Position numbers and translations under genes: made by a program. Below are positions 32,948 through 63,688 of a stretch of 64,000 nt of DNA, piece by piece. Where the stretch lies: the NCBI RefSeq assembly GCF_000715075.1, contig NC_134085.1, forward strand, positions 155,896,178 through 155,960,177, in the 5' to 3' direction. Below the pieces are notes generated by a model. It saw nothing but the letters and a program-made list of their open reading frames with translations, was not told the origin of the DNA and made no database searches. The stretch comes from Nicotiana tabacum. Taxonomy: Eukaryota; Streptophyta; Magnoliopsida; Solanales; Solanaceae. Position 1 is the first letter of the stretch, and the number at the start of each line of letters is the position of its first letter.

Positions 32948-32986
32948 CTACATATCCCTGGCTAGAAGGGAATCAGGTTAATGTAG
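32948..32986 (-). promoter_or_regulatory. Two-stem inverted-repeat motif, E near PPT
   Basis: Outer arms CTACAT (32948-32953) and ATGTAG (32981-32986) pair perfectly. An inner CCC/GGG arm pair lies between, next to the conserved GAATCAGG. One of seven copies in D and E. Confidence 0.6.
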
Positions 32987-33029
32987 TTCGGGGAGTTTCG
33001 GTAGCTGGGACTACCATGTGACTGTAATG

Positions 33030-33103
33030 TTCGCTGCTGTTGTATGTTGTTACTGCTGTTGTATGATGTTACTGCTGCTGTATGCTGTTATTGCTGCTCT
33101 ACC
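33030..33103. repeat. Short tandem repeat, E 3' region
   Basis: About three copies of a 24-25 bp unit of the form GTTGTATGTTGTTACTGCT. Confidence 0.75.
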
Positions 33104-33561
33104 GGTCTCCTTATTACATCGTGCTAAAAAGAAAACAAGAAGCTAGACTAGACTGCAACTTGTTCTTGTTGCCTTGCTTTCTTGTCGGCTTGTGTTTCCT
33201 CCGGTGCTTTTTTCCGTGAATTTGGGGATGACACTGGCCCTTTGCTTTTCTGAATACCAGTTTTCATCATTTTGTTCGGTCCACTGGGGACATGGCTTTC
33301 TTCATTAAGCTTTTCGGCGGTTCCTCTAGGGATACGGCTTTCTTCATCAGACTTGTTATGTCGGGCATAATTATTTATGTTCACAAGTCGCTTCTTTCAA
33401 GATGCGTCTTTTCTTCCTTTTGACTCAGGCGCTTGAATTTGTGTTGGGACCTCTTGTTGCAACCTTTTGCTTCCCGGTGCTGGGATTTTTATTGCTTCCT
33501 GCTGGGGATTCCTGTTGTAACCTTCTGCCTTCCGGTGGGGTTACTGATTTCAAAATCTGCA
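33104..33561 (-). other. E 3' non-coding region
   Basis: Non-coding DNA between the short repeat and the 50 bp array. I see no gene in it. Confidence 0.5.
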
Positions 33562-34107
33562 GTATAAGACTGAAAAGTATTCCTCTTGTTATACAGGTGG
33601 GCGCCTATTTAAACTAAGACATAAAAATATTCCTCTCATTATACAGGTGGGCGCCTATTTAAACTAAGACATAAAGGTATTCCTCTCATTATACAGGACA
33701 TGAAAATATTCCTCTCGTTATACAGGTGGGCGCCTGTTTAAACTAAGACATGAAAATATTCCTCTCGTTATATAGGTGGGCGCCTATTTAAACTAAGACA
33801 TAAAAATATTCCTCTCGTTATACAGGTGGGCGCCTATCTAAACTAAGACATGAAAATATTTCTCTCGTTATACAGGTGGGCGCCTATCTAAACTAAGACA
33901 TAAAAATATTACTCACGTTATACAGGTGGGCGCCTATTTAAACTAAGACATAAAAATATTCCTATCGTTATACAGGTGGGCACCTATTTAAACTAAGACA
34001 TAAAAATATTCCTCTCGTTATACAGGTGGGCGCCTATTTAAACTAAGATATGAAAATATTCCTCTCGTTATACAGGTGGGCGCCTATTTAAACTAAGACA
34101 TAAAAAT
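33562..34107 (-). repeat. 50 bp tandem array, E 3' region
   Basis: About eleven copies of a 50 bp unit (marker AACTAAGACA at 33841, 33891 and 33941 gives the period). One copy near 33690 is shortened. Each unit contains CAGGTGGGCGCCT, which can form a short AGG/CCT hairpin. D has a related array at the same place with diverged units. Confidence 0.92.
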
Positions 34108-35250: not shown

Positions 35251-35622
35251 TTTGCCCTTCAACAGGGAATTGGGGTGTTGTCGACATGACTCTCTCTTTC
35301 GGAGATTCTTTCTGGCTATCAATTCATTTCTCATTTATGATCCTCTTCTTTGCTGGAGATCAGCGCATTTATCCTCGGCTTCCATTGTCCTAACTTGGCA
35401 CTTCTCGGACATTGATCGGGAGGTCTTTTTGGGCATCGATGTTGGTTTTGTGTGTCAAATTTTAACTTAACTCCGATGGGTGAAGTGTTACAACTCTTGG
35501 AATCAACCCTTTTGGATATTCAAAACATAATTCATGCCCTAGTTTTCTTGCTTGGGTAATTTTATATTTACACTATGTTGAGCTATGCACATTATGCACA
35601 CTATGACCGAGCCGTGAGGCGC

Positions 35623-35658
35623 CTACGTATCCTCTTTGAGGAATCAGGTCAAACGTAG
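35623..35658 (-). promoter_or_regulatory. Two-stem inverted-repeat motif, E after integrase
   Basis: Outer arms CTACGT (35623-35628) and ACGTAG (35653-35658); inner arms CCTC and GAGG; GAATCAGG follows the inner stem. It lies about 240 bp downstream of the integrase stop. Confidence 0.65.
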
Positions 35659-35896
35659 TTCCTAACTCTCTTGTTTTTCTTGTGATCTTTATCTTTCTCC
35701 TTCTTAACTTCTTTTTCATATCTTTTCCCATTTAGTGATTCCAAAAAAGGGATATGAAAGAATAACTTAAGGCTCAAAAAGGGGGAAGCAAGGGTTAAAA
35801 ATGTTTGGATAGAAGAAAGATTTACCTCCGTCATTTCATTATCCAATAAGTACCAAATACAAACAAACAAACCAATAACTATCATAATCGAAGAAA

Positions 35897-36721
35897 TTAC
35901 GCATAATATCTTTTGACTGCATCAGAATTGATAGCCATGTCGACACATCTTCCCTCAACATCTATTAGGCACAAAGCACTGTTGGACAACACTCTGGTCA
36001 CGATGTAAGGCCCTTGCCAATTTGGGGCGAACTTGCCTTTTGCTTCGACCTGATGCGGGAGGATCCGTTTCAATACCTGCTGCCCTACTTCAAATTTTCT
36101 GGGGCGTACCTTCTTATTGTATGCCCTTGCCATTCTCTTATGATACAACTGACCATGACACACTGCTACCAATCTTTTTTCGTCTATCAAGCTCAACTGT
36201 TCCAGTCGAGCTTTGACCCATTAATCATCATCAATCTCGGCTTCAGCGACAATCCGGAGGGACGGAATTTCGACCTCCGCTGGTGTTACTGCCTCAGTTC
36301 CGTATACCAACAAATAAGGAGTTGCACCTATGGAAGTCCGGACTGTAGTGCGATAACCCAACAAAGCAAAGGGTAATTTCTCGTGCCATTGTCTAGATCC
36401 TTCCACCATCTTCCGCAGTATCTTTTTGATGTTCTTATTGGCTGCTTCGACCGCTCCATTCGCCTTGGGACGATATAGGGTGGAATTGCGATGTGTAATC
36501 TTGAATTGTTGGCATACCTCTCTCATCAGGCTGCTATTAAGATTCGCACCATTATCCGTGATGATCACTTTTGGGATCCCAAATCTGCAGATGATATGGG
36601 AGTGAACAAAATCCACCACTGCCTTTTTAGTTACCGACTTGAAGGTTTTAGCCTCAACCCATTTGGTGAAGTAGTCGATGGTCACCAGAATGAACCTATG
36701 GCCGTTGGACGCTGTTGGCTC
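35897..36721 (-). pseudogene. Integrase catalytic core (part) and C-terminus of Ogre E
   Basis: This is the second half of E's integrase, starting at the D insertion. It holds the second catalytic Asp (IITDNGANLNS), the catalytic Glu (NGAVEAANK) and, after one in-frame TAA near 36220 where D has Glu, the C-terminal LIDEKRLVAVCHGQLY and KRILPH..GPYIVTRVL segments to the stop at 35897. The first half with the zinc-binding domain and first Asp is at 58180 and above. Apart from the insertion and one stop it is intact. Confidence 0.93.
36717..36721 (-). repeat. Left target-site duplication of Ogre D (ggctc)
   Basis: A perfect match to 58180-58184 across the 21.5 kb element. Confidence 0.95.
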
Positions 36722-36822
36722 TGTCACACCTCATTTTCCACTGCCTACACCCCCGGAAGAGGGGCGTAAAGGAGTTTTTCCATTTAAAGGACAATCGGAA
36801 TGGGATTTAATTATTAATTATT

Positions 36823-36833
36823 CAGAGTCGCCA
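36823..36833 (-). other. Copy of the PBS core inside D 3' LTR
   Basis: TGGCGACTCTG on the minus strand, the same 11 bases as the start of the PBS. Confidence 0.7.
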
Positions 36834-37083
36834 CTTGGGAGATTAATGGTGTCCCAAGTCACCGGTTGAATCCCGAACCGAGGAAATTTATGACTCTGTT
36901 AACAGTCCGCGAACCAAAAATCCGAGTAAGGAATTCTGTTAACCCGGGAGAAGGTGTTAGGCATTCCCGAGCTCCGTGGTTCTAGCACGGTCGCTTAATT
37001 GTTGTATTTAATTTTATCTGATTTTGATACACGCTATCTTATGTGCCTGTTATTAATTTTGAATTGCTTTTATTATAATTATA

Positions 37084-37620
37084 TTTTAGAAGAATTGCGA
37101 CGTCGTGAAAATGCGTTCCAAACCGCGTCGCAATCAATGCACCCGTGGTTATCGACACATTTCGACTTCATCGAGATTTGGATTTAGGTCGCATCAATGC
37201 GCACCCGAGTTTAAGAAAGTGATTTAATTAAATCGTGCCTAAAGATACTAAAGTGTTACTTTGGGGAAAAGCCATGAAGTTCGCTAAACGGCCATCCCAA
37301 ATTCTAATTATTTCGATAATTATTTACTAAGGGCCCCACATTTATTTATTTTGTGCGGTAAAGCTCTTTTCTATCATTATTAAGAATTACGATGTCGCGA
37401 AAACGTGTTTCGAACCCCGTCGCAATCAATGCGCCCGTGATTGTCAACACATTTCGACTTCATCGAGATTTGGATTTGAGTCGCATCAATGCGCACCCGA
37501 ATTTAAGAAGGTCATTTTATTAATAATGCTCCTAAATGGTCTAACGAGTTGTTATCTTTAGGGAATGCCGCGATATTCACTAAACGGCCCGTCCCGAAGT
37601 CTAAAAGTCCTAATTAATTT
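37084..37620 (-). repeat. Two tandem ~295 bp units in D 3' LTR
   Basis: Units start near 37084 and 37380. Each has GTCGCAATCAATGC.CCCGTG, ATTTCGACTTCATCGAGATT, GCATCAATGCGCACCCGA and CTAAACGGCC segments. The counterpart is 54933-55460 in the 5' LTR. Confidence 0.8.
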
Positions 37621-40333
37621 GCACGTTTTCAGCTTCAAGTTCATGGGATTATACTAATAGCCTCAGCGCTTATGAGATTGAGGAAGGCTGCCCAAATTCC
37701 AAGCATGCAGCTAGCTGCTCTTCAAATATGAGATTCAGTATTATCTGATCCCCAAATCATCTCAATTGACAAATTTTATGGCATAACAAAGGACCGAGGA
37801 TAGATGTATGCAACATACATTGTATTTAAGCTCGGACAGGATAGTAACCAATATCAACTCAAAACACAAGTTAGAAATGAACTCTTGTGTTGATGAATCA
37901 AGATGGAGGTTTGCAATTCAACAGTCAAACCAGTGGATCAAATAGCTAAGATAAAAGAATATGCAATCCTGCTACTACAAGAACAAAATGGATCCTGAAT
38001 TGCAGATAAACCAAAATCCAAGACAGATACCGCTAACAATGCAGAATTGGCACTCAAAATGCACAAACTTGCTGCTCAATTAATGCAAAACAAAGCAGAT
38101 TTTCAGCAGACCCGCAGTTCAAACAAATAACCAAAATACTGCACGTCATCAACTTAATCTACTACTGAAATTGCCTTCTTCAGCAGCTCGAAAGAGCAAG
38201 ACTATTACAGCAGTAACAAGACAAGGAGAGCATTTAAACCTTCAGATTCGCCACTGCCTCACCAGAAAACTATTCCAAGTATATATCAGAGAAGCAGCAC
38301 AAAACAAACTATTTCAAACTCGAACCTGATGGAACTAAACCATGTGATATCAAGCAGAGGGTCGATTGATTTAATAGAATTAGATGCCAAGGCAATCTCA
38401 GTTCCAACAAATGATCTATGTCAATCAGAGAGCAAGAGAAGTATCAAACCTCAACAAGAGAACTAACAAATTCGAACAACTCTCACCACACACGGAAGAT
38501 CAGTGATATTAAAGAAAAGTGAGACATGAATGAAGTAAGAGTTTTCTGATTAATCAAACCGAGGCGATTAGACGGACTGAAACAGAGCAGCAGTTTCAAC
38601 TAAATCAACATAGCATTCAAGACATAAGCCACACAAGTTTCACTATCGATGCCACAACTGGAAGGAAATGAAAATGCTGTCTAATCTAGACTTCAGCACT
38701 AGGCTACTACCAGTAATCTAAGAGAATGCCAACCAACAAGCAACCAAACAGCAATTTCATATTCTGCCAAACAATCTCATGAGCAGATGTTTTGCAACGA
38801 AAGGAAAACAAACGATATTCACCACGTATTCTTAGAGCATACGATCGATGTTCCATAGATTCCAATTGATGTTGAAAGAAACACAAAAATAGATATGAAA
38901 GTCAATTATCATACTAAATGGAAATCACAGGGAAGAAGGCAGGGGAGCTAAGATTTCATTATAGTAACCGGGAAGTATTCATGGACATACGCAGACTTTG
39001 TTTAACTCATTGCACAGGGCTATTCGACATCACTTAATTTTGAAAATGAAACTAGTACCTGAAATCAGCTCTTCAATTAACAAAGTTTGGCGATTACAGT
39101 GAATTACTCGAACCAAAACCAAATGAATCAATGACGACCAAGATACCTCGACTTGGTTCCACGACGAACAACAACGACGATGAACTCAAAACAGCCTCCT
39201 CTCAATTGCATTACACATCAGAACCAAACCAATGAATAACGAAATTCAGGGTTCGAAAAGAAAACCAACTCAAACTAAACCCTTTGATTTTTGTATATTT
39301 TGTTTAGAAATTCCAGAAAAACAAAGAAAAAGAAGTCACCATTTACTCTCTGAAAATCTATCACTCCCCAAAAATCCTCTCCGAAAAACCACCATTCAAA
39401 GAATCAGATTCAATCCTTTTATGAAACGAACCCCGGATGAATGTAGGGCTCGGATTGAATGAAATCTATCCGATGCCTCACATTCATCCAACGTATCATC
39501 TCTAGGACCTTCTAATCGCGTCACTTCTCTCAAACTCGAGCGAGTGAACGAAAACAGAATCTTTGGTGTGAAATCTGTTATCTGGGGTAGGAGGAGAGAT
39601 AGATGAACGCGCAGGTTAGGGATTTAGGCTCACTTGCTTGGAATTTGGATGGAATTTGGGGTTGGGTTCGAGTGATTTGGAGAAGAAGAACAGGGTTGCG
39701 TTGGGTTTGGGACTTAGGGCTCATCCGTTGCTTCTTCATGCTTTTGGGATGGTTCGGGTTACGGGGATGGGTTGGCAGGCAAGGACGGGTGATTTGGGCT
39801 GGGGTTAGAATAGGTATTGATTTTGGGCTAGGATCCGTTTGGGCTGGGGGTTTTAGGAACGGAACTTGGCCCAGATTTTGGGTCTTTTTAAGATCACCTA
39901 TTTTACTCTTATTTTCTTTTCTCTTTTATTTCCTTTTTCTCATTTTTAATTTTTTTTTTTATAATTTTTCTAATTTTTATAAAGATGTAAAACTAACATG
40001 AAATCCTAATTATTTCAAAACAAAGACTAATTAATTCCTAAAATTGTTTAAAAACTATTTCATGACAAATTCACAATAAAAATCATTAAAATGCAAAAGT
40101 GAACTAATTTTGTGATTTTTCATGTTTTGTCTAAACAAATTAACCCTTAATTGATACTAAAATATAAAACTAAAACCTAAATGCAAAAATGCATATTTTT
40201 GTATTTTATAAAAATTAACATGCGCAAATAAAAATGCAACCATTATCAAAAATGACACCAAAATGCACAAAAAATCATTTTACTTGAATTTTTGGGAATA
40301 ATTCATATATAGGGCAAAAATCACGTGCTCACA

Positions 40334-40347
40334 GCTGCCCCTCTTTG
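40334..40347 (-). other. Polypurine tract of Ogre D
   Basis: On the minus strand GCAAAGAGGGGCAGC abuts the 3' LTR start. Confidence 0.88.
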
Positions 40348-40473
40348 CTCGGAAACACAAAAGGTTTTCGGCCAAAGATAAGTGAGCAAATACGAGCGAT
40401 TTTTGCCCGTTTGAAAATTCCGTGTGAAGCAATTTTTTTGAAAAGTTTGACCGCGTCCTGCTTCAGAGGTTGC

Positions 40474-40512
40474 CTACATATCCTAGGCTAAACCGGAATC
40501 AGGTTAGTGTAG
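40474..40512 (-). promoter_or_regulatory. Two-stem inverted-repeat motif, D near PPT
   Basis: Outer arms CTACAT (40474-40479) and GTGTAG (40507-40512), five pairs plus one mismatch or wobble; inner arms TCC and GGA; GGAATCAGG follows. It is the D counterpart of 32948-32986. Confidence 0.55.
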
Positions 40513-40879
40513 TTCATAAATGAGTGAGATGACGGAGTATGCCGAGGTAGAGCTCCGATCGAGGTGTCGTTTCGTCGAGGTTCCGGTCTGCGGTCCCTGT
40601 TATTACATCAAAAATCAAAAGATGAAAAGACTAGCTAATCCTATCGACTACGAGCTACAAAATTTCTATCTATAAGTCTTTTGAAGCTTGATCTTGAGTC
40701 TTGAGTGGTTCTTTATGCAGACTTTAGATTTAAACCTTGACGCTTGTTAGTTGCATGTGCTAGCTCGTTCTTCTACAGCTTTTGGGTCAAGACCGGACAT
40801 GTAGTGCTTGTGACCTCGGCCATGTCTTGAGCATATCACATCCTTCATCAACTTCTGAATTGCTTTCTGAATTGAATTC

Positions 40880-41520
40880 CTTTTTCTTTTCCAGGTGGGT
40901 GCCAGATTGCTGAACTTGAAATTGAATGTATTCCCCTGTTATCCAGGCGGGCTCCTGATTTCCGAAACTTGAAATTGAATGTATCACCTCTGTTATTCAG
41001 GCGGGCTCCTGACTACTGAACTTGAACTGAATGTATTCCTCTGTTATCTAGGCGGGCTCCTGACTTCATAAAAATAAACGAACCAAGAAAACTTTCTGCC
41101 CCAGTTTGGAAACTGGGTACATGTTACTTGATATTAATAAGAATTTGATTAAAACTTGACTTGAAATACCTCTATTATACAGGCGGGCTCCTGACTTCCG
41201 AAACTTGAGTTGTATGCCTCTGTTCTTCAGGCGGGCTCCTGACTTCAAAGAGACAAAGAAATCGATTGAAAACTAAAATTTGAATTGTATCACCTCTGTT
41301 CTTCAGGCGGGCTCCTGATTGCTGAATTTGAAATTGAATGTCTCTATTCTCCAGGCGGACTCCTGACTTTTAAAATTTAAATTGTATGTCTCCGTTCTTC
41401 AGGCAGACTCCTGACATCAAACTTGAAAAGTATGTCTCTGTTCTCCAGGCTGACATCCTGACTTCAAACTTGAAAAGTATGTCTCTGTTCTCCAGGCGGA
41501 CATCCTGACAACTTGCATTT
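40880..41520 (-). repeat. Diverged tandem array, D 3' region
   Basis: About ten units of roughly 50-60 bp, each with CTCTGTT.T.CAGGCGGGCTCCTGA. Units are more diverged and less regular than E's 50 bp array. CAGG-CGGGCT-CCTG in each is a perfect 4 bp hairpin. A non-repeat piece (about 41065-41165) interrupts it. Confidence 0.85.
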
Positions 41521-42807
41521 TATCCTAAACATGCGAACTTTGCAACCAGATTATATTCCCCTATGCTACTCATGATCATCTTGTATTTTAATCATGCCAC
41601 ACTTGCGATTTAAACTTGATTAACACCCGCTCTTCCCCCATGGCAAATTCTTCATGACAAATAATTTCCTGCCCCTCTTTCAATCACTGAAAATTTCGTT
41701 AGTTTTTTTTTTAAAAACGGTGGTTAGTTGATGGCATTCTTGCTGCATCGTCCTTCCATTGCCTTGCTTTGTATTGCCCGACATCCTCGGAACTGCCTGA
41801 CTTTCCAAACGACTTCCACGTTCCCCCAATTTTTGACCACCTGAATGCCTTTGTACCCATACCGTTGTCTCATCTTTCCGGCCCTTTTGCTTGAACCTTC
41901 ATATTTCCCATAACATTTCCCAAATATTCTGCCGATGCAACTTCCGGCGACTTCCCTTATTCCATTTTACCTCTTGTTGTTTTGACATGCTCTGACCACG
42001 TTGTGCTTTACAATTCCGGAAGCTGGTAGTGAGCTTGAAATCCTTTCCCACTTGCTTTTGAACATAACTGACATTAGAACATTTAGACAAACAAAAACCC
42101 CCAAAAGAGAATGAAATGCAATGGTTTTACAGGTTAAGGATAAGAAGAATCCAAAATCGGATGACTACTAAAATGAAGCAAAGAAAAGAAACTTATTTGA
42201 CCGGAACAGCTAGCACCAATGGTCATGACATGCATTTTGGATTAATCGGCCCAATCTGTCCAAATAACCAACTTTCAATTGCCATACTTTGTTGCCCAAA
42301 ACTTCCATCAATTGTTTAAATTACCCAGACCTTTCCCTAGTTTTCCTGCGGTACCTCGAAACATTCTTCCACCCACAAACCTTTTGCCTTTTAACTATCT
42401 TCCAACTCACTTTCGCCTCAAGGTGCCCGCGAGGGTTTTCACCAATAAGACTTTCTCGTTTATTTTTCTCTCAGCTCCCGTCGCCTTACGATGCCCGTGA
42501 GGGTTTTCACCGACAAGACTCTCCCATTTTGCTTTCGTTCTTTCTTGTTTTAACCAGAGTGTCGCCACTGATACGAATTACCGTCACCTGTTCGACCTGG
42601 CATTTCTTAGAGATTGATCAAAAGGTCTTTCTTTGGACCGTAATGTAGGCTTTTGGATGGGGTTAGAAAGAGAGGTATAAAAGGCTCAAAACAATTCGAA
42701 TGGGTTCAAATTACAACTTTCGGAATCCAACTTTCATAACAATCACAATTTCTACCCCAGTTTCTTGCTTGGGGATTTTAGGATTTTTATTTGATATGAC
42801 TGAACCT
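41521..42807 (-). other. D 3' non-coding region
   Basis: Non-coding. It includes a PPT-like purine run on the minus strand near 41669-41682 (GAAAGAGGGGCAGG) and the two-unit repeat at about 42415-42530. Short frames are not supported as genes. Confidence 0.5.
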
Positions 42808-42821
42808 CGGAGTAAGGCTGC

Positions 42822-42854
42822 CTACGTACCCTTTCGGGATCAAGTCAAACGTAG
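42822..42854 (-). promoter_or_regulatory. Two-stem inverted-repeat motif, D after integrase
   Basis: Outer arms CTACGT (42822-42827) and ACGTAG (42849-42854); inner arms CCC and GGG; ATCAAGTCAA between. It is the D counterpart of 35623-35658. Confidence 0.65.
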
Positions 42855-42879
42855 TTCACTGTATTTAACTTTGTCATTG

Positions 42880-43110
42880 TGATTTTCTTTCTTTCCTTTT
42901 TCTTTCGCTTTTCTTTCTTTCTTTTCCTTTTCTTCTTTTCTTTTCTTCTCTTTCTTCTTTTTTTTTCTTTTTCTTTTCTTCTTCTTTCCTTTTTTTTTTC
43001 TTCTTCCTTTCCTTTTTTCTTTCCTTTCTTTTCTTTCCTTTTTTCTTTCCTTTCTTTTCTTTTCTTTCTTTTTCCTTTTGTTTTTCTCTTCTTTCCTTTA
43101 TGTTCGGCAC
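42880..43110 (-). repeat. Long polypyrimidine (+) / polypurine (-) tract in D
   Basis: About 230 bp of almost pure CTTT and TTCTT on the + strand, so AAAG/GAAA on the transcribed strand, just after the integrase stop. It yields Lys/Glu- or Phe-rich frames on either strand that are only a by-product. Confidence 0.9.
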
Positions 43111-43283
43111 CTGTGTTCTCTGATAGTGCCGCTGATTCCAAAAGAGGGGTATGAAAAATAAGTAAAGCTCGAAGAGGGATAACAAGGGATAAGAGTGTTT
43201 GGATAGCAGGACAAAATGCCTTCATCATTTCAATCTTTAAGATATGCCAAATACAGACAGACACATTCAGAAAAATAAAGAAA

Positions 43284-44655
43284 TTATACATAATATCTTT
43301 TGACCGCATCGGAATTGATGGCCATTTCTACACATTTTCCTTCCACATCGGTAAAATACAATGCTCCGTTAGACAACACTCTGGTTACTACAAATGGTTC
43401 CTGCCAGTTTGGGGCAAATTTTCTTTTGCCTCAGCCCAATGAGGCAAGATCCGCCTCGGTACTAATTGCCCGACTTCAAATTTCCTTGGACGTACCTTCT
43501 TGTTGTATGCTCTCGCCATTCTTCGTTGGTACAGTTGGCCATGACACACTGATGCCAATCTTTTCTCGTCGATCAAACTCAACTGCTCAAGCCGGCTTTT
43601 CACCCATTCATCATCATCGATCTCAGCCTCTGCGATGATTCGCAGAGATGGGATTTCCATTTCTGCAGGTATTACTGCCTCGGTACCGTATACCAATGAG
43701 TAAGGAGTCGCCCCGACTGAGGTACGCACGGTGGTGCGATATCCTAACAATGCAAAAGGCAATTTCTCGTGCCATTGTCTAGATCCTTCAACCATCTTCC
43801 GGAGTATTTTTTTTATGCTCTTATTGGCCGCTTCAACCGCACCATTTGCCTTGGGACGGTACGGAGTAGAGTGCCTGTGAGAAATCTTAAACTGCTCACA
43901 TGTTTCCTTCATCAAATGACTATTAAGATTAGCCCCATTATCTATGATGATTACCTTTGGGATCCCAAACCGACAGATGATATTTGAATGCACGAAGTCA
44001 ACTACAGCCTTCTTAGTCACAGACTTGAACGTCTTAGCTTCCACCCATTTGGTAAAATAATCTATAGCTACCAAGATAAACCTGTGCCCATTTGATGCTA
44101 CTGGATCAATTGGCCCAATAACATCTATGCCCCACGCAACAAAAGGTCATGGTGCGGACATCGTATGTAATTTTGATGGTGGAGAATGAATCAAATCTCC
44201 ATGTACTTGGCATTGATGACACTTACGCACAAAACTGATACAGTCCTGCTCCATCGTGAGCCAATAATAACCCGCTCGGAGAATCTTCTTTGCTAGAACA
44301 TACCCACTCATATGCGGTCCACACACTCCGGAATGCACCTCAGTCATGATAGTTGTGGCCTGCCGTGCATCTATACATCTCAACAAACTGAGATCTGGCG
44401 TTCTTTTGTACAGTAGTCCTCCACTAAGGAAAAACCCACTTGCCAACAGTCGAATTGTTCTTTTCTGATCAGCGATGGCCTGCGTTGGATATATTTCTGC
44501 TTTGATGTACTCTTTGATATCATGGAACCACGGCTTTCCATCGATTTTCTCTTCTATCACATTACAGTAAGCATGCTGATCGTGGACCTGAATCTGCAAC
44601 GGATCAATGTAAGCCTTATCTGGATGGTGCAACATTGACGCCAAAGTAGCCAAAG
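43284..44655 (-). pseudogene. Integrase of Ogre D
   Basis: It reads from the linker after RNase H (LASMLHHPDKAYIDP) through the HHCC zinc-binding domain (EVHSGVCGPHMSGY, FVRKCHQCQ) and the catalytic core: first Asp in IDVIGP, second in IIDNGANLNS, Glu in NGAVEAANK. The C-terminal LIDEKRLASVCHGQLY segment follows, with the end at 43284. A stop near 44147 replaces Trp. A frameshift near 43430 scrambles the segment after AEAKEN before the final residues, which are recognisable in another frame. Unlike E's integrase it is not split. Confidence 0.92.
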
Positions 44656-45454
44656 CATCATCAACCTCATTATGAATCCTTGGGATATGCCTGAATTCTA
44701 TGGCCTGAAAACGCTAGCAAAGCTCATGCAGACACTGCCGATACGGTATAAGCTTCAAGTCCCGTGTTTCCCACTCCCCTTGAATCTGGTGTACTAGTAG
44801 GTCCGAGTCGCCCATGACCAAGACTTCTCGTACACCCATATCCACAGCTAATCTCAATCCCAATATACACGCCTCATATTATGTCATGTTGTTTGTACAG
44901 TAGAAATGAAGCCGAGCTGTAACAGGGTAATGAAGACCTGTTTCCGAAATAAGTACTGCTCCTATTCCCACGCCCTTCATATTTGCAGCCCCATCAAAGA
45001 AAAGTTTTCATCCTGACTTCTCAGCTTGTTCCAATTCGTCAATGTGCATTACCTCTTCATCAGGGAAATAAGTTTTCAAAGGCTCATAATCTTCATCAAT
45101 GGGGTTCTCCGCCAAGTGATCGGCTAATGTCTGTGCTTTCATGGCAGTCTGTGTCACATAGACAATGTCGAACTCTGTAAGTAAGATCTGCCACTTTGCA
45201 AGCCTTCCTGTGGGCATGGGTTTCTGAAAAATATACTTCAACGGGTCCAGGCGAGATATAAGGTAAGTGGTGTAGAATGACAAGTAATGTTTCAATTTCT
45301 GTGCTACCCAAGTTAGGGAACAACATGTCCTTTTCCAGATGAGTATACTTGACCTCGTAAGATGTGAACTTCTTACTGAGATAGTAGATAGCCTACTCTT
45401 TTCTGCCTGTAACATCATGCTGCCCCAGTACACAGCCGAATGAACTGTCCACAA
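44656..45454 (-). pseudogene. Double RNase H region of Ogre D
   Basis: The tail of the first, degenerate RNase H (ALTWVAQKLKHYLS-like, TTYLISRLDPLKYIFQK) is followed by a linker and then a second RNase H: FFDGAAN with its Asp, NNM.YEACILGLRLA, the GDSDLLVHQ Asp and EVDDALATLAS. Stops near 45008 (Trp in E), 44882 (Glu in E) and 44716 (Lys in E) and a frameshift near 45310 break it. Tat-lineage elements, including Ogre, are known for this added plant-type RNase H. Confidence 0.88.
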
Positions 45455-50890: not shown

Positions 50891-50914
50891 ATGGTCGAAT
50901 CCTATGGAGATTGT

Positions 50915-51170: not shown

Positions 51171-53228
51171 CTATGCATATTCTAGTGCTTCAAACTTAGG
51201 TATCCACGGGGCGTCGTTCGGCCTCGCCGCGGGTCTAGGATCCAAATCCCTTTCAAGCTGCTCTAACTCATTCATGGTTCACTTCACATAGATCATCACT
51301 GCTGAGATAAAAGTAGTACGGGTCATGTCTTCACAAACCCGGCACCTCCTGACAATAGCAAGAGCAATGGCTCTAATCTTGTCTTGTGTTTGCTTTTTTT
51401 CTATGAGCAAGCGTCTTATCTGATCGCTGCACATTTTTAAAGCTCAGGAGTCTTGCAAGTGCTGGTTTTGCAGCTGTTGCACTTCTGCCTCCATTTGGGC
51501 CAACAAGTTGTAACAATGCCAGCTTTCAGTTTCAAAGTCTCTAGCCTGCCTAACTGTTTTACCCTCAAGGGCAACCACTTTTCTCTTTAAATTGGCAATA
51601 ATTTTCTCATGGTCCCTTTTCAACCGATTCAAGTATTGGCGACGCTCTTCGGTTTTTGTTGCCCACTGTGCTTTAAGTTCTGCCATGACGCTTTCAGCTT
51701 TTCCTAACTCATCCCGCCATTCTCTGACTTCGCTTTCCAATCTTTTTACCAATTGTTCATCGGATCGGCTCCTCGGTTGCTTATTGATGGTTATCTTCAA
51801 CTGTCGGATCTGGGCCCTAAGTGCTTCATTTTCTTTGGCTAGTCTATTCTTTTCACCTTGATCCGCGGCAACCTGTACACTGTTCTCGAATTTCAGACTC
51901 TCGACTTGTTGCTTTAATTTACCAATCTCAACTCGATAGCTTTCTTCCTTTGCTAACCAATCCCACTGCTCATGGGACGACTTGGAGAAATCTTTGAGAT
52001 GAGGTCTTTTAGCCGGTCTCCCATATGCCACGTCACCTCTGAACCATTCGTGATACCCTGGAGCAATTTCCCCTTTGACCCTATCAGACACACAAGTGTT
52101 TGCCATCAGATATTGACACTCACTCCAAATTTGACGAACCTCTTCCTCGGGGAATCGACCGTCAGGACTAATTTCGACCACTTGGGTACTCAAATCTTCA
52201 TCTCTCGGTATTACTTGATATCTACCAAGTTGCCTCAGAACCCGATATGGTGCATAAGGTTGTATACTTTTGAGTCCCGTTAACAAAAAATGCGGTCGGG
52301 CTGCTGGCATATATATGACTTCCTCGACAGACAACCATCCAAGCACCCACTGTATCTGGCTAGCCTTGAGGTTCCGAAATAATAATACCCAAGCCGTGAC
52401 TCCTTCAGGTAGACTAGCCCCTTTGATTCTCGTACAAAATTCCCCTATACAAGTTTTCTCAGCCGAACCATAACTCAATAACTGAGAGCGCGGGCACAAA
52501 GGCTCAATCATCCACATTTGTAACAATAAGTTACATCCCTCAAAAAATTCGCCCCCAGCTTTGCACGCAGTGAGAGCTCTGAAGATATCAGCCACAATCA
52601 TAGGTGCTAAAGTGCTTTTCCCCATGGTTTGCAAAGTACTGACGACGCCTGCTACTTTTAAATCAATATTACCATCTTTCCTTGGGAATATTACGAGACC
52701 CAAAAAAGCTACCATAAATGCCACTCGCCTATGTTCCTCCCATTTTTGTCGGCTATTTCTGCTGCAAAGCTTAAAGTCCGGATTATTGAACCCGCCCACA
52801 TGGCCATATCTATCATACACGAAGCGGAAACTACAGAAACCCTTTGTAAAATCTGGGTGATGAACTGTCCGGGGTATTTTCAAGGAATCCAGGAATCGGT
52901 GTATGGTAATGGCCCTAGGAGCAATCAGGTACTTGAATCTCAATGGAGCTTGGTCACTTCCAATGTACCCCGCTATTTCTTCCAATATTGGGGTGAGTTC
53001 AAAGTCTGAAAAATGAAACACATTATGTGTCGAATCCCAATGGGCGACCAATGCCCTGATGATATCCCCCCGAGGCTGAATGTCTAATAAATCCGGAAGG
53101 TCTTTCAAATATTTTCTCACTTCGTCTTTCCCTTCTTTGTCCAAATCATTCCACCACAATTGCAGCTCAAAAGGGATTTTGGTCATTATTGAAAAAGGCT
53201 CATTTACCATCGTGCTCATCCTGCACAT
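51171..53228 (-). pseudogene. ORF1 protein of Ogre D (unknown function)
   Basis: A 594-residue frame from the ATG at 53228, between PBS and gag, is the extra ORF that sets Ogre elements apart. The N-terminal 400 residues look globular (LQLWWNDLDKEGKDEV, LKIPRTVHHPDF, WEEHRRVAFMVAFLGLVIFPRKDG). From about residue 430 it is a long coiled coil rich in Glu, Lys and Gln. The frame meets TGA at 51444 but continues in phase through a second TGA (51279-51281) to a natural-looking end at 51171; the C-terminal segment DLDPRP..RPNDAP matches the end of E's ORF1, so both TGAs are disabling mutations. Its role is not known. Confidence 0.85.
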
Positions 53229-54530
53229 TTATTAAAGCGTTTAAGCAAAAAGAAAACTTTTATTTAACTCCAAAAAAAAACTATCTATATTATCGACTCA
53301 AAATTACCCTTATATTTTCAAATGAAGAACTCGATTCTCAATTCTAATTTTTTTTTAAGATAAAGGACCCGATATTGCGACACGGCCTTTCAATGCCTCG
53401 AGGGCGAAAATTTTAAGACTGTGAAAAAAAAAATCAAAATACGACCAGAGGTGGCTGTTTATGCAAAGTCAGCCTTCCGACGCCCCATTTGGGAACATTC
53501 GGCTATTTTTGACAAAAACAGCATCACCTGGTTTATTTATGACAAAAATTAAAATTTTGATATTTTTTGGTTATTTTTGCAAAGTGGAGGTTGGACCCGA
53601 TGAGGGTTGCCTACGTATCTCACACCCTGTGAGAATCAAACCATGCGTAGTTCGGGCAAATTAACCGAACTATTTTAAAACATGATTTCTATTTTTTCCT
53701 GGCAAGACAACCTATTTTCCTTTTCTGTTTTTTGAAAACAAGACCAAATGACGATTTTTCCATTTTCAACATACAATAACACAATCTATTTTTCCAAATT
53801 AAACTAAAAGACTTCTCTTTTTTTCTATATATTTTTTTAGTAAAACAAAATAAAACACATTTTTTTTCAAAATTTCAGCAGAGTTTCGCCAGTAATTGGT
53901 CATTGACTTTCCTAAAATAATCAATTAACTCCCTAACTGATATTTTATTTTTCACTCTTTTCTCTTCTTTTTTTTAATTTTCCAACATTCCCGAGATTCA
54001 AAAACCGGTCAACACGCAAGTTCGAAGCAAATATATGTACAGAGCGAGTAGGATGCATTAGAATGGTCTTTTTATTTCAGGTTGCTAGCCCTAGACGGAC
54101 CCAACCCCTGTGTTGAGTCCCCTAAGTCAAATGCAACGTGATGCAAATAAGCGTTCCTACTAGGGATCCGGCATGAAGTCACGTTATTCTATATTCAAAA
54201 CCTGAGTCAGTGTACTAGACTGTGTACCCGAGCGGACAACTCGAGTCGAGGAGGGGGCAACTTACCGGGAACCAAAAGGCCATCCGGCTTCGTAACTTAT
54301 CCGACCTCTTTCTTATTTCAGGGTATGACACCAACAGAATAAGGAGTCTCAACCAGTGAGCACATCCCCGGAGGTGAAGAGAGAAGGGTGTCGACACAAT
54401 TTATATACAGTTCAGATAATATCAAAGCGGTAACATTTAGCACATTCAGCACAAAACATGTAGGAAAATCAGATACAATTAAATAAAACAATTTATCTAA
54501 GCTCGAATTCTGAACCCTGAACCAGAGATT
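53229..54530 (-). other. Leader of Ogre D between PBS and ORF1
   Basis: A 1.3 kb non-coding leader. It holds one two-stem motif (53611-53650) and T-rich (+) stretches at about 53690-53990. I see no gene; a splice or packaging role is possible but unproven. Confidence 0.55.
53611..53650 (-). promoter_or_regulatory. Two-stem inverted-repeat motif, D before ORF1
   Basis: Outer arms CTACGT (53611-53616) and GCGTAG (53645-53650), five sure pairs; inner arms CTCAC and GTGAG, the longest inner stem; GAATCAAACCAT between. It lies about 380 bp upstream of the ORF1 start. Confidence 0.65.
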
Positions 54531-54558
54531 CTGGGTTCGTTTCCCAGCAGAGTCGCCA
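54531..54558 (-). other. Primer-binding site of Ogre D
   Basis: On the minus strand, four bases after the LTR end, TGGCGACTCTGCTGGG continues into a further 12 bases complementary to a tRNA T-arm. On the + strand it reads as a tRNA 3' end: a T-arm stem CTGGG/CCCAG around TTCGTTT, then C, a 7-base acceptor strand and CCA. Ogre PBSs are reported to match tRNA-Arg; I could not confirm the isoacceptor. Confidence 0.85.
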
Positions 54559-54663
54559 GAGCTGTCACACCTCCTTTTCCACTGCCTACACCCCCGGAAG
54601 AGCGGCGTAAAGGAGTTTTTCCATTTAAAGGACAATCGAAACGGGATTTAATTATTAATTATT

Positions 54664-54674
54664 CAGAGTCGCCA
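54664..54674 (-). other. Copy of the PBS core inside D 5' LTR
   Basis: TGGCGACTCTG on the minus strand, about 110 bp upstream (in transcription) of the true PBS at 54558. Confidence 0.7.
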
Positions 54675-54932
54675 CTTGGGAGATTAATGGTGTCCCAAGT
54701 CACCGGTTGAATCCCGAACCGAGGAAATTTATGACTCTGTTAACAGTTCGCGAACCAGAAATCTGAGTAAGGAATTCTGTTAACCCGGGAGAAGGTGTTA
54801 GGCATTCCCGAGCTCCTTGGTTCTAGCAAGGTCTCTTAACTGTTGTATTTAATTTTATTTGATTTTGATACACGCTATCTTATGTGCCTGTTATTAATTT
54901 TGAACCGCTTTTATTATAATTATATTTTAGAA

Positions 54933-55460
54933 GAATTGCGACGTCGTGAAAATGCGTTTCGAACCGCGTCGCAATCAATGCACCCGTGGTTATCGACACA
55001 TTTCGACTTCATCGAGATGTGGATTTGGGTCGCATCAATGCGCACCCGAGTTTAAGAAAGTGATTTAATTAAATCGTGCCTAAAGATACTAACGTAGTGT
55101 TACTTTGGGGAAAAGCCATGAAGTTCGCTAAACGGCCATCCCAAATTCTAATTATTTCGATAAATATTTACTAAGGAGCCCACATTTATTTATTTTGTGC
55201 GGTAAAGCTCTTTTCTATCATTATTAAGAATTACGATGTCGCGAAAACGTGTTTCGAACCCCGTCGCAATCAATGCGCCCGTGATTGTCAACACATTTTG
55301 ACTTCATCGAGATTTGGATTTGAGTCGCATCAATGCGCACCCGAATTTAAGAAGGTCATTTTATTAATAACGCTCCAAAATGGTCTAACGAGTTGTTATC
55401 TTTAGGGAATGCCGCGACATTCACTAAACGGCACGTCCCGAAGTCTAAAAGTCCTAATTA
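54933..55460 (-). repeat. Two tandem ~295 bp units in D 5' LTR
   Basis: The counterpart of 37084-37620. Confidence 0.8.
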
Positions 55461-58179
55461 ATTTGCACGTTTTCAGCTTCAAGTTCATGGGATTATACTA
55501 ATAGCCTCAGCGCTTATGAGATTGAGGAAGGCTGCCCAAATTCCAAGCATGCAGCTAGCTGCTCTTCAAATATGAGATTCAGTATTATCTGATCCCCAAA
55601 TCATCTCAATTGACAAATTTTATGGCATAACAAAGGACCGAGGATAGATGTATGCAACATACATAGTATTTAAGCTCGGACAGGATAGTAACCAATATCA
55701 ACTCAAAACACAGGTTAGAAATGAACTCTTGTGTTGATGAATCAAGCTGGAGGTTTGCAATTCAACAGTCAAACCAGTGGATCAAATAGCTAAGAGAAAA
55801 GAATATGCAATCCTGCTACTACAAGAACAAAATGGATCCCGAGTTGCAGATAAACCAAAAGCCAAGATAGATACCGCTAACAATGCAGAATTGGCACTCA
55901 AAATGCACAAACTTGCTGCTCAATTAATGCAAACCAAAGCAGATTTTCAGCAGACCCGCAGTTCAAACAAATAACCAAAATACTGCACGTCATCAGCTTA
56001 ATCTACTACTGAAATTGCCTTCTTCGGCAGCTCGAAAGAGCAAGACTATTACAGCAGTAACAAGACAAGGAGAGCATTTAAACCTTCAGATTCGCCACTG
56101 CCTCACCAGGAAACTATTCCAAGTATATATCAGAGAAGCAACACAAAACAAACTATTTCAAACTCGAACCTGATGGAACTAAACCATGTCATATCAAGCA
56201 GAGCGTCGATTGATTTAATAGAATTAGATGCCAAGGCAATCTTAGTTCCAACAAATGATCTAGGTCAATCAGAGAGAAAGAGAAGTATCAAACCTCAACA
56301 AGAGAACTAACAAATTCGAACAGCTCTCACCACACACGGAAGATCAGTGATATTAAAGAAAAGTGAGACATGAATGAAGTTAGAGTTTTCTGATTAATCA
56401 AACCGAGGCGATTAGATGGACTGAAACAGAGCAGCAGTTTCAACTAAATCAACATAGCATTCAAGACATAAGCCACACAAGTTTCACTATCGATGCCACA
56501 GCTGGAAGGAAACGAAAATGCTGTCTAATCTAGACTTCAGCACTAGGCTACTACCAGTAATCTAAGAGAATGCCAACCAACAAGCAACCAAACAGCAATT
56601 TCATATTCTGCCAAAGAATCTCATGAGCAGATGTTTTGCAACGAAAGGAAAACAAACGATATTCACCACATATTCTTAGAGCATACGATCGATGTTCCAC
56701 AGATTCCAATTGATGTTGAAAGAAACACAAAAACAGATATGAAAGTCAATCGATCATACTAAATGGAAATCACAGGGAAGAAGGCAGGGGAGCTAAGATT
56801 TCATTATAGTAACCGGGAAGTATTCATGGACATACGCAGACTTCGTTTAACTCATTGCACAGGGCTATTCGACATCACTTAATTTCGAAAATGAAACTAG
56901 TACCTGAAATCAGCTCTTCAATTAACAAAGTTTGGCGATTACAGTGAATTACTCGAACCAAAACCAAATGAATCAATGACGACCAAGATACCTCGACTGG
57001 GATCCACGACGAACAACAACGATGATGAACTCAAAACAGCCTCCTCTCAATTGCATTACACATCAGAACCAAACCAATGAAGAACGAAATTCAGGGTTCG
57101 AAAAGAAAACCAACTCAAACTAAACCCTTTGATTTTTGTATATTTTGTTTAGAAATTCCAGAAAAACAAAGAAAAAGAAGTTACCATTTACTCTCTGAAA
57201 ATCTATCACTCCCCAAAAATCCTCTCCGAAAAACCACCCTTCAAAGAATCAGATTCAATCCTTTTATGAAACGAACCCCGGATGAATGTAGGGCTCGGAT
57301 TGAACGAAATCCATCCGATGCCTCACATTCATCCAACGTATCATCTCTAGGACCTTCTAATCGCGTCACTTCTCTCAAACTCGAGCGAGTGAACGAAAAG
57401 AGAATCTTTGGTGTGAAATCTGTTATCTGGGGTAGGAGGAGAGATAGATGAACACGCAGGCTAGGGATTTAGGCTCACTCGCTTGGAATTTGGATGGAAT
57501 TTGGGGTTGGGTTCGAGTGATTTGGAGAAGAAGAACAGGGCTGCGTTAGGTTTGGGACTTAGGGCTCATCCGCTGCTTCTTCGTGCTTTTGGGATGGGTC
57601 GGGTTACAGGGATGGGTTGGTAGGCAAGGAGGGGTGATTTGGGCTGGGGTTAGAATAGGTATTGATTTTGGGCTAGGATCCGTTTGGGCTGGGGGTTTTA
57701 ACAACGGAACTTGGCCCATATTTTTGGTCTTTTTAAGACCACCTATTTTACTCTTATTTTCTTTTCTCTTTTATTTCCTTTTTCTCATTTTAAAATTTTT
57801 TTTTTTATAATTTTTCTAATTTTTATAAAGATGTAAAACTAACATGAAATCCTAATTATTTCAAAACAAAGACTAATTAAATCCTAAAATTGTTTAAAAA
57901 CTATTTCATGACAAATTCACAATAAAAATCATTAAAATGCAAAAGTGAACTAATTTTGTGATTTTTCATGTTTTGTCTAAACAAATTAACCCTTAATTGA
58001 TACTAAAATATAAAACTAAAACCTAAACGCAAAAATGCATATTTTTGTATTTTATAAAAATTAACATGCGCAAATAAAAATGCAACCATTATCAAAAATG
58101 ACACCAAAATGCACAAAAAATCATTTTACTTGAATTTTTGGGAATAATTCATATATAGGGCAAAAATCACGTTCTCACA

Positions 58180-58184
58180 GGCTC
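58180..58184 (-). repeat. Right target-site duplication of Ogre D (ggctc)
   Basis: A perfect match to 36717-36721; both copies lie in E's integrase frame. Confidence 0.95.
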
Positions 58185-60837: not shown

Positions 60838-61004
60838 CTGTTCAGAAAGAAAAAAAACAAAACAAAAATTAAAATGAGACAAAAGAAGAGAACTTTATTA
60901 AACTTGCGGGATAACAGGGTTCACACTTTTACAAAACAAAAATAAAATTTGGATTACACCCTGGAATAATTCGAACAAGAAAAGCAAAAATCAAAGCCTA
61001 CTAC
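60838..61004 (-). other. Intron of Ogre E between G-patch and RT
   Basis: Donor TG|GTAGTA (GT at 61004-61003) and acceptor TTTTTTTTCTTTCTGAACAG| (AG at 60839-60838) bound 167 nt. Removal joins the frames in the same phase as in D. Confidence 0.75.
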
Positions 61005-61714
61005 CAGGACTCCCCCCCCCGGATAGGAAGAAGAGTAACCGTCCAATTGTTGGTTTTGGCCTCAGGCCCCACAAACTGTATGTCCGCTCCGCTGGAACTT
61101 TCTCCCACTTCTACCATATTGACATCAGTGAATAACCTCTCGAAACTCTGATTCAGGTCCTTGTCCATCCCAATCAATTGTCCGAGAATTTTGGGGACCG
61201 GTGACCCCTTGGCACTTGCTCTAACAAAAGATCTTGAGAGACGTGACACAGGTTTGGGAAGAAACCAGACTTTCTTCTTCATTTTCCGCGCTCGCTTTAC
61301 ATCTGCTGCAGTTGGTTTGAACCCTAACCCAAAGGTTTCCAAATTCTTGGGCAGGGAGACAGGTTGGACAATCCCCTAAAGCTCAACCCCCAGGCCTTTT
61401 CCCGGCACAAACCCATTACCCAGCATTTCTGAGACCATCATGATCGTTGCTGAAGCTACCCTAGGGTGCTGAATGATCTCACCCTCAGAAATCTTGTTTG
61501 CTGACATTGCATCGAAAATCTGGTAGACCCAAGGACCCTTGTCATCATTGGTCTCTATGAAGGGCACAATGGCGCCACCCATGGTGCGCGCAGTGTCCTC
61601 ACCGTGCAGTACGACCTCTTATCTATCCCACTCGAACTTGACCATTTGATGCAAGGTGGAAGGCACTGCTTTCGCTGCGTGGATCCACGGTCGTCCCAAC
61701 AGAAGGTTATAAGA
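61005..61714 (-). pseudogene. Protease tail and G-patch of Ogre E, left side of a deletion
   Basis: It starts inside the end of the protease ([18 protein letters not shown]) because the catalytic part is deleted. The frame continues with TAA near 61619 and TAG near 61378 (Gln expected). The G-patch-like MLGNGFVPGKGLGVEL and basic KRARKMKKK follow, to the splice donor at 61004. With no active-site Asp, E cannot process its own polyprotein. Confidence 0.88.
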
Positions 61715-63118
61715 TGCCCTCGGTGGAGGATAGGTGTTTTGTGGTGGTGCATGTGTGTTTTGGGGAGCCGGCGTGCGCCATTGCCGGCGAACCGGAGGCT
61801 GAGTGTATGTTTGGGCTTGGTGTACGGAGAAGTGTGGTTCTTGAGGTGGATAGTAGTGCTGTGGTGGGTTGTATGGGTAGTTTGGCCTGTGGGGTCTGGG
61901 TTGGTTGTAGTATGGTTTGCCGGACCTGGACCAACTGCTTGCCTCAATCGTGGCAATTTCTTCTTTCTTCCTCCTTCCCAGCGCACCTCACATGCCGCTC
62001 TGAATAGCTTGGGTCGTTGCCTTGAGTGCCGAGTAATTCAGGATTTTGTCAGACCTCAGACCCTCTTCTATCATGACCCCTATCTTCACTACTTCATTGA
62101 AGGATTTTCCAACCGTCGTCACCAAGTGACCAAAGTAAGTTGGATCCAGTGTTTGCAAGAAGTAGTCCATCATTTCTCCCTCTCTCATGGGAGGATCAAC
62201 TCTGGGCGTTTGTTCTCTCCAGCGGAAACCAAACTCACGAAAACTTTCCACAGGCTTCTTTCCGATCCTCAGCAACGTGAGACGGTCAGGGACTATCTCG
62301 AGATTGTATTGAAAGTGACCCGCGAAAGCCTGTGCCAGATCATCCCAAGTGTACCATCTGCTGGAATCCTGCCTGGTATACCATTCCAATGCTGATCCAC
62401 TCAAGCTTTGGCCGAAATAAGCTATCAGTAGCTCGTCTTTGCCACCTGCCCCTCTCATTTTGCTGCAAAAGCCTCGCAAATGGGCCATGGGATCACTGTG
62501 CCCTTCATACAAATCAAACTTAGGCATCTTGAACCAAGCCGGGAGTTGGACGTTCGGGAAAGGGCATAGATCCTTGTAGGCCACACTGACCTGGTTGCCC
62601 AATCCGTGCAGGTTCCTGAAGGATTGCTCCAGGCTTTTTAACTTCCTCATTACCTCATCTTGTTTTGGGACCTTAACCGGCTTCTCAATCTCCGCCGGTG
62701 CCTCCAAGTGCGGATTGTAGGTATGGGGTTCTGGTGCATTGAATGTGGGTTCAGGGGGATAGTATTGCGCATCATAAGCCTGAAATAACGGCTCGCTGGT
62801 TGATCTTTGTAGGGTGGTTGATGTGGGTCCCATAAAAGTGGGAACATTTGGTGTTGGGAGAGGTTGATGGGGTGGTGGAGCTTGGGAATCATGGTGGCTT
62901 CTCTCCTGATGATAACGGTGATTCGGGAGGCTTGTTGAAGGACCGGAGTTAAGGTATCCCGGCATGTGCCCCAGTGGCTCAGGGCTCTTTTGTCCTTTGG
63001 CTAGAGCTAACTGCATTGCATTAATCTCTAGTCACATCCTTTCTATCTTTTCCATCGCTTCCTTTAACAACTGGCTCAACGGCCTTTCTTCCTCGATACT
63101 ATTTTATGAAGTAGTCAT
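61715..63118 (-). pseudogene. Gag of Ogre E, truncated by deletion
   Basis: The most upstream in-frame ATG is 63118, followed by TAA after four codons and TGA at about 63032; the long frame starts at the Met at 63016. It shows a Pro/His-rich N-terminus, KSLEQSFRNLHGL, FKMPKFDLYEGHSDP, LIAYFGQSLSGSALEWY and FREFGFRWREQ, very like D. After a TGA near 61988 the frame goes on through the Pro/His/Tyr-rich segment to NTYPPPR at about 61717, where it jumps into the protease tail. Relative to D about 1.37 kb is missing, including the zinc knuckle. Confidence 0.9.
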
Positions 63119-63688
63119 GCTGGTTATTACCGGTCCTTTGGATATGGTTTGGTAAGGGTGTGTTGCCAGAATGCTTTTAACAACTAACTGTCTAGATTTT
63201 TGTGAAAAACAACAAACTTGTTAGCGTTAGAGTTTAACATATTTAATAACAACACATCGGGGATGCAATGCTCCTAGGCAGTTAACCGTTTCTAACATGC
63301 TTTGCTTCAAACAACATGCGTCATCCCGGATTGCTTATTTGTCTCTTTAAAGTATTTTGGGAACCCCTGTATTTTATTCTATTTTTGTATTTTCTTCTTC
63401 TTTCTTTTCTCTCCCCCTTTATTAATGGGGGTCGAATTTTATGTGGATTGCCTACGTATCACGTCCCCGCGCGAATCAGACCATGCGTAGTTCTGCCACA
63501 AAGTAAAGACACACAAAAATTCTTTCGGAATCAATTAATTCATCACCAAAATTTGCTATTACAAATTACTTCAAACAAGGAACAGCAATAGTACCGATTC
63601 CAAAGTTCTCAACCCGACTTGATTAAAAGAAAAGAAAACAACATGTGGGAAGACAACAAAGACAATTAAACAAGACTCGAACAAAAGA
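63119..63688 (-). other. E spacer between ORF1 and gag
   Basis: Non-coding, with a short T/C-rich stretch at about 63385-63420 and the two-stem motif at 63452-63490, as in D. Confidence 0.6.
63452..63490 (-). promoter_or_regulatory. Two-stem inverted-repeat motif, E between ORF1 and gag
   Basis: Outer arms CTACGT (63452-63457) and GCGTAG (63485-63490), five sure pairs; inner arms CACG and CGCG, which pair on the transcribed strand with one G-U wobble; GAATCAGACCAT between. Confidence 0.62.

Follow-up and report, generated by a model that had tools for sequence, protein, structure and literature searches.

To our knowledge, little is known about the cis-acting RNA signals of plant long terminal repeat (LTR) retrotransposons. 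The helices of self-cleaving ribozymes related to hepatitis delta virus (HDV) are named P1 to P4, and these names are used below. Conserved short inverted-repeat motifs occur in the non-coding parts of divergent plant LTR elements, the Sireviruses, including beside the polypurine tract (PPT) (PMC2829016, available part of the text). Structured cis-acting RNAs of LTR retrotransposons are represented by the MTE of mouse musD and the RTE of mouse IAP, of which the MTE contains a pseudoknot and acts in splicing-independent export (PMC12786077, available part), and plant viruses carry compact exoribonuclease-blocking RNAs (xrRNAs, such as xrRNA-D and coremin) in intergenic regions and 3′ untranslated regions (UTRs), described as pseudoknots in the case of xrRNA-D (PMC6299227, available part). 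Here we consider the Ogre retrotransposons of tobacco (Nicotiana tabacum), as found in a window of 64,000 nucleotides (contig NC_134085.1 of assembly GCF_000715075.1, positions 155,896,178 to 155,960,177 of the forward strand). The window holds two such elements, D and E, both on the minus strand, with D sitting within pol of E. At seven sites they carry a short motif, and each copy constitutes a structured element within the Ogre RNA, able to adopt an H-type pseudoknot fold into which two hairpins are inserted.

Architecture and positions of the motif

Read 5′ to 3′ on the transcribed (minus) strand, a copy runs through GAA, the 5′ strand of P1, the 5′ strand of P2, UGAU, the P3 hairpin, UA, the 3′ strand of P1, the P4 hairpin and the 3′ strand of P2. 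P1 and P3 correspond to the outer arms and the inner hairpin of a two-stem inverted repeat of 33-40 bp that had been described in an earlier note on this DNA. P4 is a further hairpin and P2 a pseudoknot joining the internal loop between P1 and P3 to the tail, its 5′ strand being the four loop bases before UGAU and its 3′ strand beginning 14-22 nt after P1 in the seven copies. Both of the described stems are real; the motif as a whole is larger, with 57-68 nt and four helices, P2 and P4 having been overlooked, and because the elements lie on the minus strand the RNA reads as the reverse complement of the motif as first written. The conserved block begins sharply at GAA, without conservation upstream, and combines a nearly invariant unpaired core with a P3 and P3 loop that vary among copies. 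Out of six base pairs first assigned to the outer stem (CTACGT arms), five hold in all seven copies and the sixth fails in four of them, where the transcribed strand has C.A. A changed outer arm had been noticed in the PPT-proximal copy of E only; it is present there, and the PPT-proximal copy of D has a changed fifth pair as well.

The copies first located at 32948-32986, 35623-35658, 40474-40512, 42822-42854, 50915-50953, 53611-53650 and 63452-63490 were all verified, and their full extents, all on the minus strand, are as follows. In D, copy 1 (53589..53653) precedes open reading frame 1 (ORF1) and has P1, P2 (GGUU/AACC), P3 and P4; copy 2 (50893..50956, P2 GGUC/GACC) lies between ORF1 and gag; copy 3 (42798..42857, P2 GACU/AGUC, P3 CCC/GGG with a GAAA loop) follows integrase; and copy 4 (40449..40515), located before the PPT and the 3′ LTR, is the weakest, with three of four P2 pairs (AACC/GGUC). 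In E, copy 2 (63430..63493) also has P2 GGUC/GACC, copy 3 (35605..35661), after integrase, has GACC/GGUC, and copy 4 (32922..32989), before the PPT, has AACC/GAUU in the alignment register, again with three of four pairs. The first copy of E had been predicted to lie off the window, and it was indeed recovered by a covariance model in the adjoining 3.7 kb (L099 1913-1983, minus strand; 54.6 bits, E-value 9.7e-18), about 230 nt before the ORF1 homology. This copy, whose P1 holds one U.G pair and whose P2 (GGUU with AACU) holds one G.U, had escaped a regular-expression search. The claim that the motif marks every non-coding junction needs one correction: copies stand before ORF1, between ORF1 and gag, after integrase and before the PPT, and none stands between gag/protease and reverse transcriptase (RT), the interval in which the Ogre intron is located (PMC6317226, available part).

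The covariance model, which was trained on the same seven copies that it recovers in the 64 kb (E-values 5.9e-25 to 8.2e-19), gave nothing else below an E-value of 0.49 and detected no eighth copy in the LTRs, the coding sequence, the protease-RT interval or the first 28 kb of the window. A descriptor that includes the pseudoknot found six of the seven (missing copy 4 of D, at 40474-40512) and no other match in the window, and one match in total in 20 Markov-shuffled windows. Searches with antisense-frame peptides found no more copies. In viral contigs, motif patterns hit 30 + 12 + 6 loci, with the full structure in 0 of 48, and a search for RT gave no match, while the motif search of bacterial and archaeal genome contigs returned 0. 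Motif letters also occur within a lentil simple sequence repeat primer, a match that was judged too weak.

Pairing kept through sequence change

The structure is almost certainly real and selected, judging by how its helices have changed in sequence. In the seven window copies, RNAalifold recovers both of the stems first described, with two-sided change in five of ten pairs. The inner stem, said to differ between copies and still to pair, does so copy-specifically: 18 of 21 cells pair at positions 3-5, a value reached in 2 of 5,040 permutations of the 3′ arm, the true one included, and between the orthologous stems of D and E there is a U-A to C-G exchange in copy 2 and a C-G to U-A exchange in copy 3. 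A MAFFT alignment, made blind to structure and extended 3′, offers 3,402 registers of 4 bp; of these P2 ranked first, with 26 of 28 cells paired and two-sided changes in all four pairs, and the inner stem came next; in its own register, P2 is equalled by 8 of 5,040 row permutations. Together, the four helices have 91.3% of their cells paired and a covariation score of 0.537; shuffling gives means of 77.9% and 0.267, neither observed value being reached in any of 500 shuffles, and sliding the helices by 1-3 columns leaves at most 36.9% of cells paired. The motif also forms islands of conservation. Specifically, the 200-nt flanks of the D/E pairs of copies 2 and 3 align no better than shuffled sequence (z -1.8 to 1.9), the motif itself aligning with z 3.2-3.3; for copy 4, conservation extends to the downstream flank, where the PPT lies (z 3.7).

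The host assembly (3.996 Gb), for which all genome-wide counts are lower bounds, has at least 59,786 matches to a half-motif (30,226 + 29,560) and 0 to a reversed control pattern. A sample of 42 loci (202 kb; the 40 stretches L057-L096 plus L051 and L052), nearly all around listed matches in the first 4.3 Mb of sequence C1, was searched blind to the tail and yielded 74 copies, 69 of them distinct. The exact complement of a copy's own P2 loop is found in the tail of 62 of the 69, the shuffled mean being 19.7 and the maximum 33 in 10,000. When 1,266 registers were scanned without regard to structure and those with more than 80% of cells paired were ranked by two-sided cells, P3, P2 and P4 came out at the top; the paired cells amount to 345/345 in P1, 273/276 over the four pairs of P2 (98.9%), 317/345 in P3 and 286/333 in P4. 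A tally of 72 copies, which counts repeats and covers L097 but neither L051 nor L052, has five that lack the exact P2 complement, three of which pair with one G.U and two of which have one mismatch. Genome-wide, the fourth P2 pair of GACY-type copies is C-G in at least 11,550 matches, U-A in at least 3,759, U.G in at least 333 and C.A in at least 504 (odds ratio 259); by these lower-bound counts it is Watson-Crick in 15,309 of 16,146. The suggestion of a selected secondary structure is thus strongly supported, beyond what had been claimed, by the register scan, the shuffles, the 69 genome copies and the genome-wide counts.

It is hardly credible that the copies are inherited repeats without present function, or palindromes bound by proteins at the DNA level. 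They are related by descent, and several contain TACGTA within their P1 arms; however, P2, P3 and P4 have changed in sequence and still pair across the larger alignment of 69 copies, and a DNA palindrome has no need of the pseudoknot P2.

As to which strand folds, short first loops of H-type pseudoknots can cross the deep groove, not the shallow groove. The first connecting loop of the present pseudoknot is only 1-4 nt long, and since it would cross the deep groove on the transcribed strand and the shallow groove on the opposite one, the transcribed strand is the likely folding strand. Consistent with this choice are the counts of G.U versus C.A on the transcribed strand in the 69 copies, which are 4/0 in P1, 9/1 in P2 and 49/32 in P4. 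Less favourable are P3, taken up below, and the position of a possible sixth P1 pair, which has C.A in 41 of the 69.

Slots, gene-less derivatives and probable role

In the 40 stretches L057-L096, 0 of 71 copies lie inside a coding match and 36 could be placed by neighbouring coding matches, the other 35 being unplaced. The P2 loop is GGUU in five copies and GAUU in one before ORF1; GGUC in five, GAUC in one and GGUU in one between ORF1 and gag; GGUC in six and GAUC in two at no more than 800 nt before gag; and GACC in nine and GACU in six after integrase. Each of the first three slots favours P2 base pairs of its own, and because copies 1-3 of D and E obey the same slot rule, the slots have probably differed in P2 since before the D and E families split. 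L052, L063, L066 and L089 show either other P2 loops (UACC, GAUC) or the order GGUC before GGUU, which suggests further variants of the slot arrangement.

Ten of the 40 loci, all of them partial stretches, are without a tblastn match (E-value 1e-5) to pieces of the Ogre ORFs of the window. Seven of these (L059, L069, L076, L077, L078, L081 and L084) hold two to four copies with P2 types in slot order; L060 and L091, with one copy each, and L089, with two copies of other P2 types, were set aside. The spacing of the gene-less loci is shrunk to about 0.75-1.0 kb between slots 1 and 2 and about 1.3-2.0 kb between slots 2 and 3; with genes in between, the corresponding distances are 2.4-2.8 kb and 7.6-7.8 kb. 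There are also intermediate loci (e.g. L062, L070, L075, L079) that keep gag and little or no pol. One gene-less element, covered over 14.3 kb (C1:3822200-3836500 of G000; L097, L081 and L098), has copies 1-4 in order and no coding match; its LTR pieces share 97.4% identity across 1,195 b, and the far end of the 3′ LTR is outside the stretch; the other six of the seven loci have a similar layout. The exact P2 complement is retained in all 21 copies of the seven loci and L097. These derivatives probably constitute one or more non-autonomous families. In two of them copy 1 is doubled, about 225 bp apart (L077 639/868; L078 3190/2969).

The main argument about the role of the motif comes from these loci: copy 2 persists between two missing coding blocks, as would be expected if it acts in cis when the element multiplies, and not if it served translation. 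A translation element would help ribosomes to reach ORF1 and gag by internal entry, shunting or reinitiation, and copies 1 and 2 do precede ORF1 and gag, with 3 (copy 1 of D), 16 (copy 2 of D) and 9 (copy 2 of E) intervening ATGs. No comparable ORF, however, lies downstream of copies 3 and 4, and gene-less loci keep copies 1-3, leaving this explanation very unlikely. Indeed, the longest ATG-initiated ORF between copies 3 and 4 on the transcribed strand has 69 amino acids in E, and D has none of 60 or more. Among the functions that the earlier note had listed, translation of separate ORFs is therefore weakened, because there is no sizeable ORF between copies 3 and 4 and gene-less loci keep their copies; packaging has become the leading one, and RNA processing and template switching stay candidates. 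Rather than controlling the translation of ORFs, the motif probably acts in cis as a signal in the retrotransposition cycle, and since its folding is kept despite sequence change, even in gene-less elements, the signal is probably needed for the element's multiplication.

A shared fold with a nearly invariant unpaired core would suit a site recognised, most probably, by Gag of the element itself or by a host factor, through which genomic RNA of Ogre would be singled out for entry into virus-like particles. Avidity would come from having several such sites across the untranslated regions, and derivatives without genes could move with the help of trans-acting proteins only if they retained their copies. 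Retention in cis, as expected of a packaging signal, is found in seven gene-less loci (one followed through with four copies), for which a common founder is possible. A signal for packaging of genomic RNA in particular is a plausible reading, to be held tentatively. The pseudoknots may instead recruit export factors for the intron-containing genomic RNA, like the MTE and RTE. Ogre transcripts are only partly spliced (PMC6317226, available part), and the MTE offers the precedent of a pseudoknot in export; but gene-less elements, which keep their copies without a pol region, would need the signal only if their RNA also retained an intron, and four scattered copies exceed what export should need. 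Such an export element is possible but unlikely.

Several points weigh against reading the motif as a selected packaging signal that folds on the transcribed strand. On the seven copies, the free-register complementarity tests are not significant, 68 of 5,040 row permutations equal the observed P2 when any register of the loop-tail block is allowed, and P4 alone is weak (1,054 of 5,040 permutations equal the observed). The genome copies are related by descent, so that their covariation counts are not independent events, and if the gene-less loci share one founder their copies may have been kept by descent. P3, with 4 G.U and 8 C.A, has no preference for the transcribed strand; single-copy folding energies, from a method that does not model pseudoknots, are ordinary on that strand (z between -2.29 and 0.04), and copy 1 on the opposite strand has the most negative value of all (z -4.58). 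Finally, copy 3 and the integrase stop are separated by variable distances, about 430 nt in D versus about 240 nt in E. The candidate roles rank as packaging, then nuclear export, exonuclease blocking, translation and ribozyme. A short covarying pseudoknot at set untranslated slots, retained by gene-less derivatives, gives a direct handle on the selection, export or processing of Ogre genomic RNA, and Ogre elements of the host genome, together with their non-autonomous relatives, can be picked out sharply by its sequence.

Host elements and comparison with described systems

The host element family is itself ordinary. D (36721..58180, minus strand), delimited by self-BLAST and Pfam domains, has LTRs at 36721-40334 and 54562-58180 (minus strand; 97.5% identity by self-BLAST) and encodes ORF1, gag, RT and integrase. 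The Ogre (Tat) definition includes an extra ORF before gag, often with a plant mobile domain (PMD), and a second RNase H (aRH) between RNase H and integrase (PMC6317226, available part). ORF1 of D (51444..53228, minus strand; homologous end with a stop at 51171-51173) provides the former, with Pfam E-values of 2.7e-17 for PMD and 7.7e-22 for DUF7745, and the latter is seen in the order RVT_1, RT_RNaseH, RVT_3, Integrase_H2C2 at 58167-60137.

Some further features of the two elements may be mentioned. Both LTRs of D match MIR6151, a microRNA precursor family of Rfam (39426-39496 and 57271-57341, minus strand; 88.6 bits, cut-off 71), and this family may have originated in an Ogre LTR. E has 50-bp tandem repeats at 33468-34196, between copies 3 and 4, in a 3′ untranslated region of the kind described as hypervariable in Tat elements (PMC7004042, available part). 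D has long purine-rich tracts on the minus strand just before copy 3 (42860-43110) and just after copy 2 (50670-50870), and a second conserved non-coding block, recognised by eye, is common to D and E between copy 2 and gag (50560-50670 and 63220-63330, minus strand).

At gathering scores, the Rfam models matched nothing on the motif in the window, the MIR6151 matches in the LTRs of D being the only ones. Relaxed searches of the part of the window from 31 to 64 kb had none on or near a copy up to an E-value of 5, and up to 10 copy 1 of D had none and copy 3 of D three chance-level matches, none of them HDV. K-turn, SECIS, hammerhead and an extra GAA-UUC helix were dropped after inspection by eye. 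Literature searches, covering titles and the starts of abstracts with subscription Ogre papers outside their scope, did not find a structured RNA in Ogre, and where 'Ogre', 'pseudoknot' and 'retrotransposon' occur together, the available part of the text uses 'pseudoknot' for musD.

The nearest likeness in helix order is to the HDV-like ribozymes (HDV, R2 5′). The sequence P1, P2 pseudoknot, P3, P1 3′ strand, P4, P2 3′ strand, traced here by covariation alone, is theirs (R2 consensus in PMC3774820, available part). A C directly before the 3′ strand of P2 is likewise shared with these ribozymes, being present in all 7 copies of the window and in 63 of the 69 taken from the genome. The Ogre motif differs in having a 5-bp P1 after an unpaired GAA, UGAU between P2 and P3, and no conserved P1.1; its P3 and P3 loop vary freely, whereas the P3/L3/P1.1 active-site region is conserved in R2 ribozymes according to the same source. 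The motif is not filed as HDV-like because this conserved region is missing, and a ribozyme that would cut the transcript at each junction is highly improbable, the HDV model of Rfam having no match at the gathering score in the window or up to an E-value of 10 on copies 1 and 3 of D.

The pseudoknot of xrRNA-D uses the apical loop, as drawn in its published diagram. The Ogre P2 uses the internal loop 5′ of P3, with the extra hairpin P4 before its 3′ strand, and the apical loop is variable, in place of the apical-loop/tail pseudoknot and the conserved L1 and L2B of xrRNA-D (PMC6299227, available part). An exonuclease block, in which the copies would halt 5′-3′ decay by XRN4 and leave defined RNA pieces as the xrRNAs of plant viruses do, would fit the similar locations and the sharp start of conservation at GAA, and 5′-3′ decay factors matter in Ty1 packaging (PMC12786077, available part); with a helix order unlike the xrRNA classes described in the available text and no Rfam match, this is quite improbable. 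It is conceivable, if improbable, that the motif represents an undescribed RNA class of HDV order, with tens of thousands of copies in one plant genome, which would be self-acting (by exonuclease block or cleavage) and would partition the giant Ogre transcript into defined, virus-like subgenomic RNAs.

Among retrotransposons, the Sireviruses, which belong to Ty1/copia, have clusters at the PPT, an inverted repeat at the PPT/LTR junction and palindromic boxes in the LTRs, and the available part of PMC2829016 describes no pseudoknot, whereas the Ogre motif has one in P2. The musD MTE and IAP RTE are each one element, whereas Ogre, a plant element, has four short copies at different slots.

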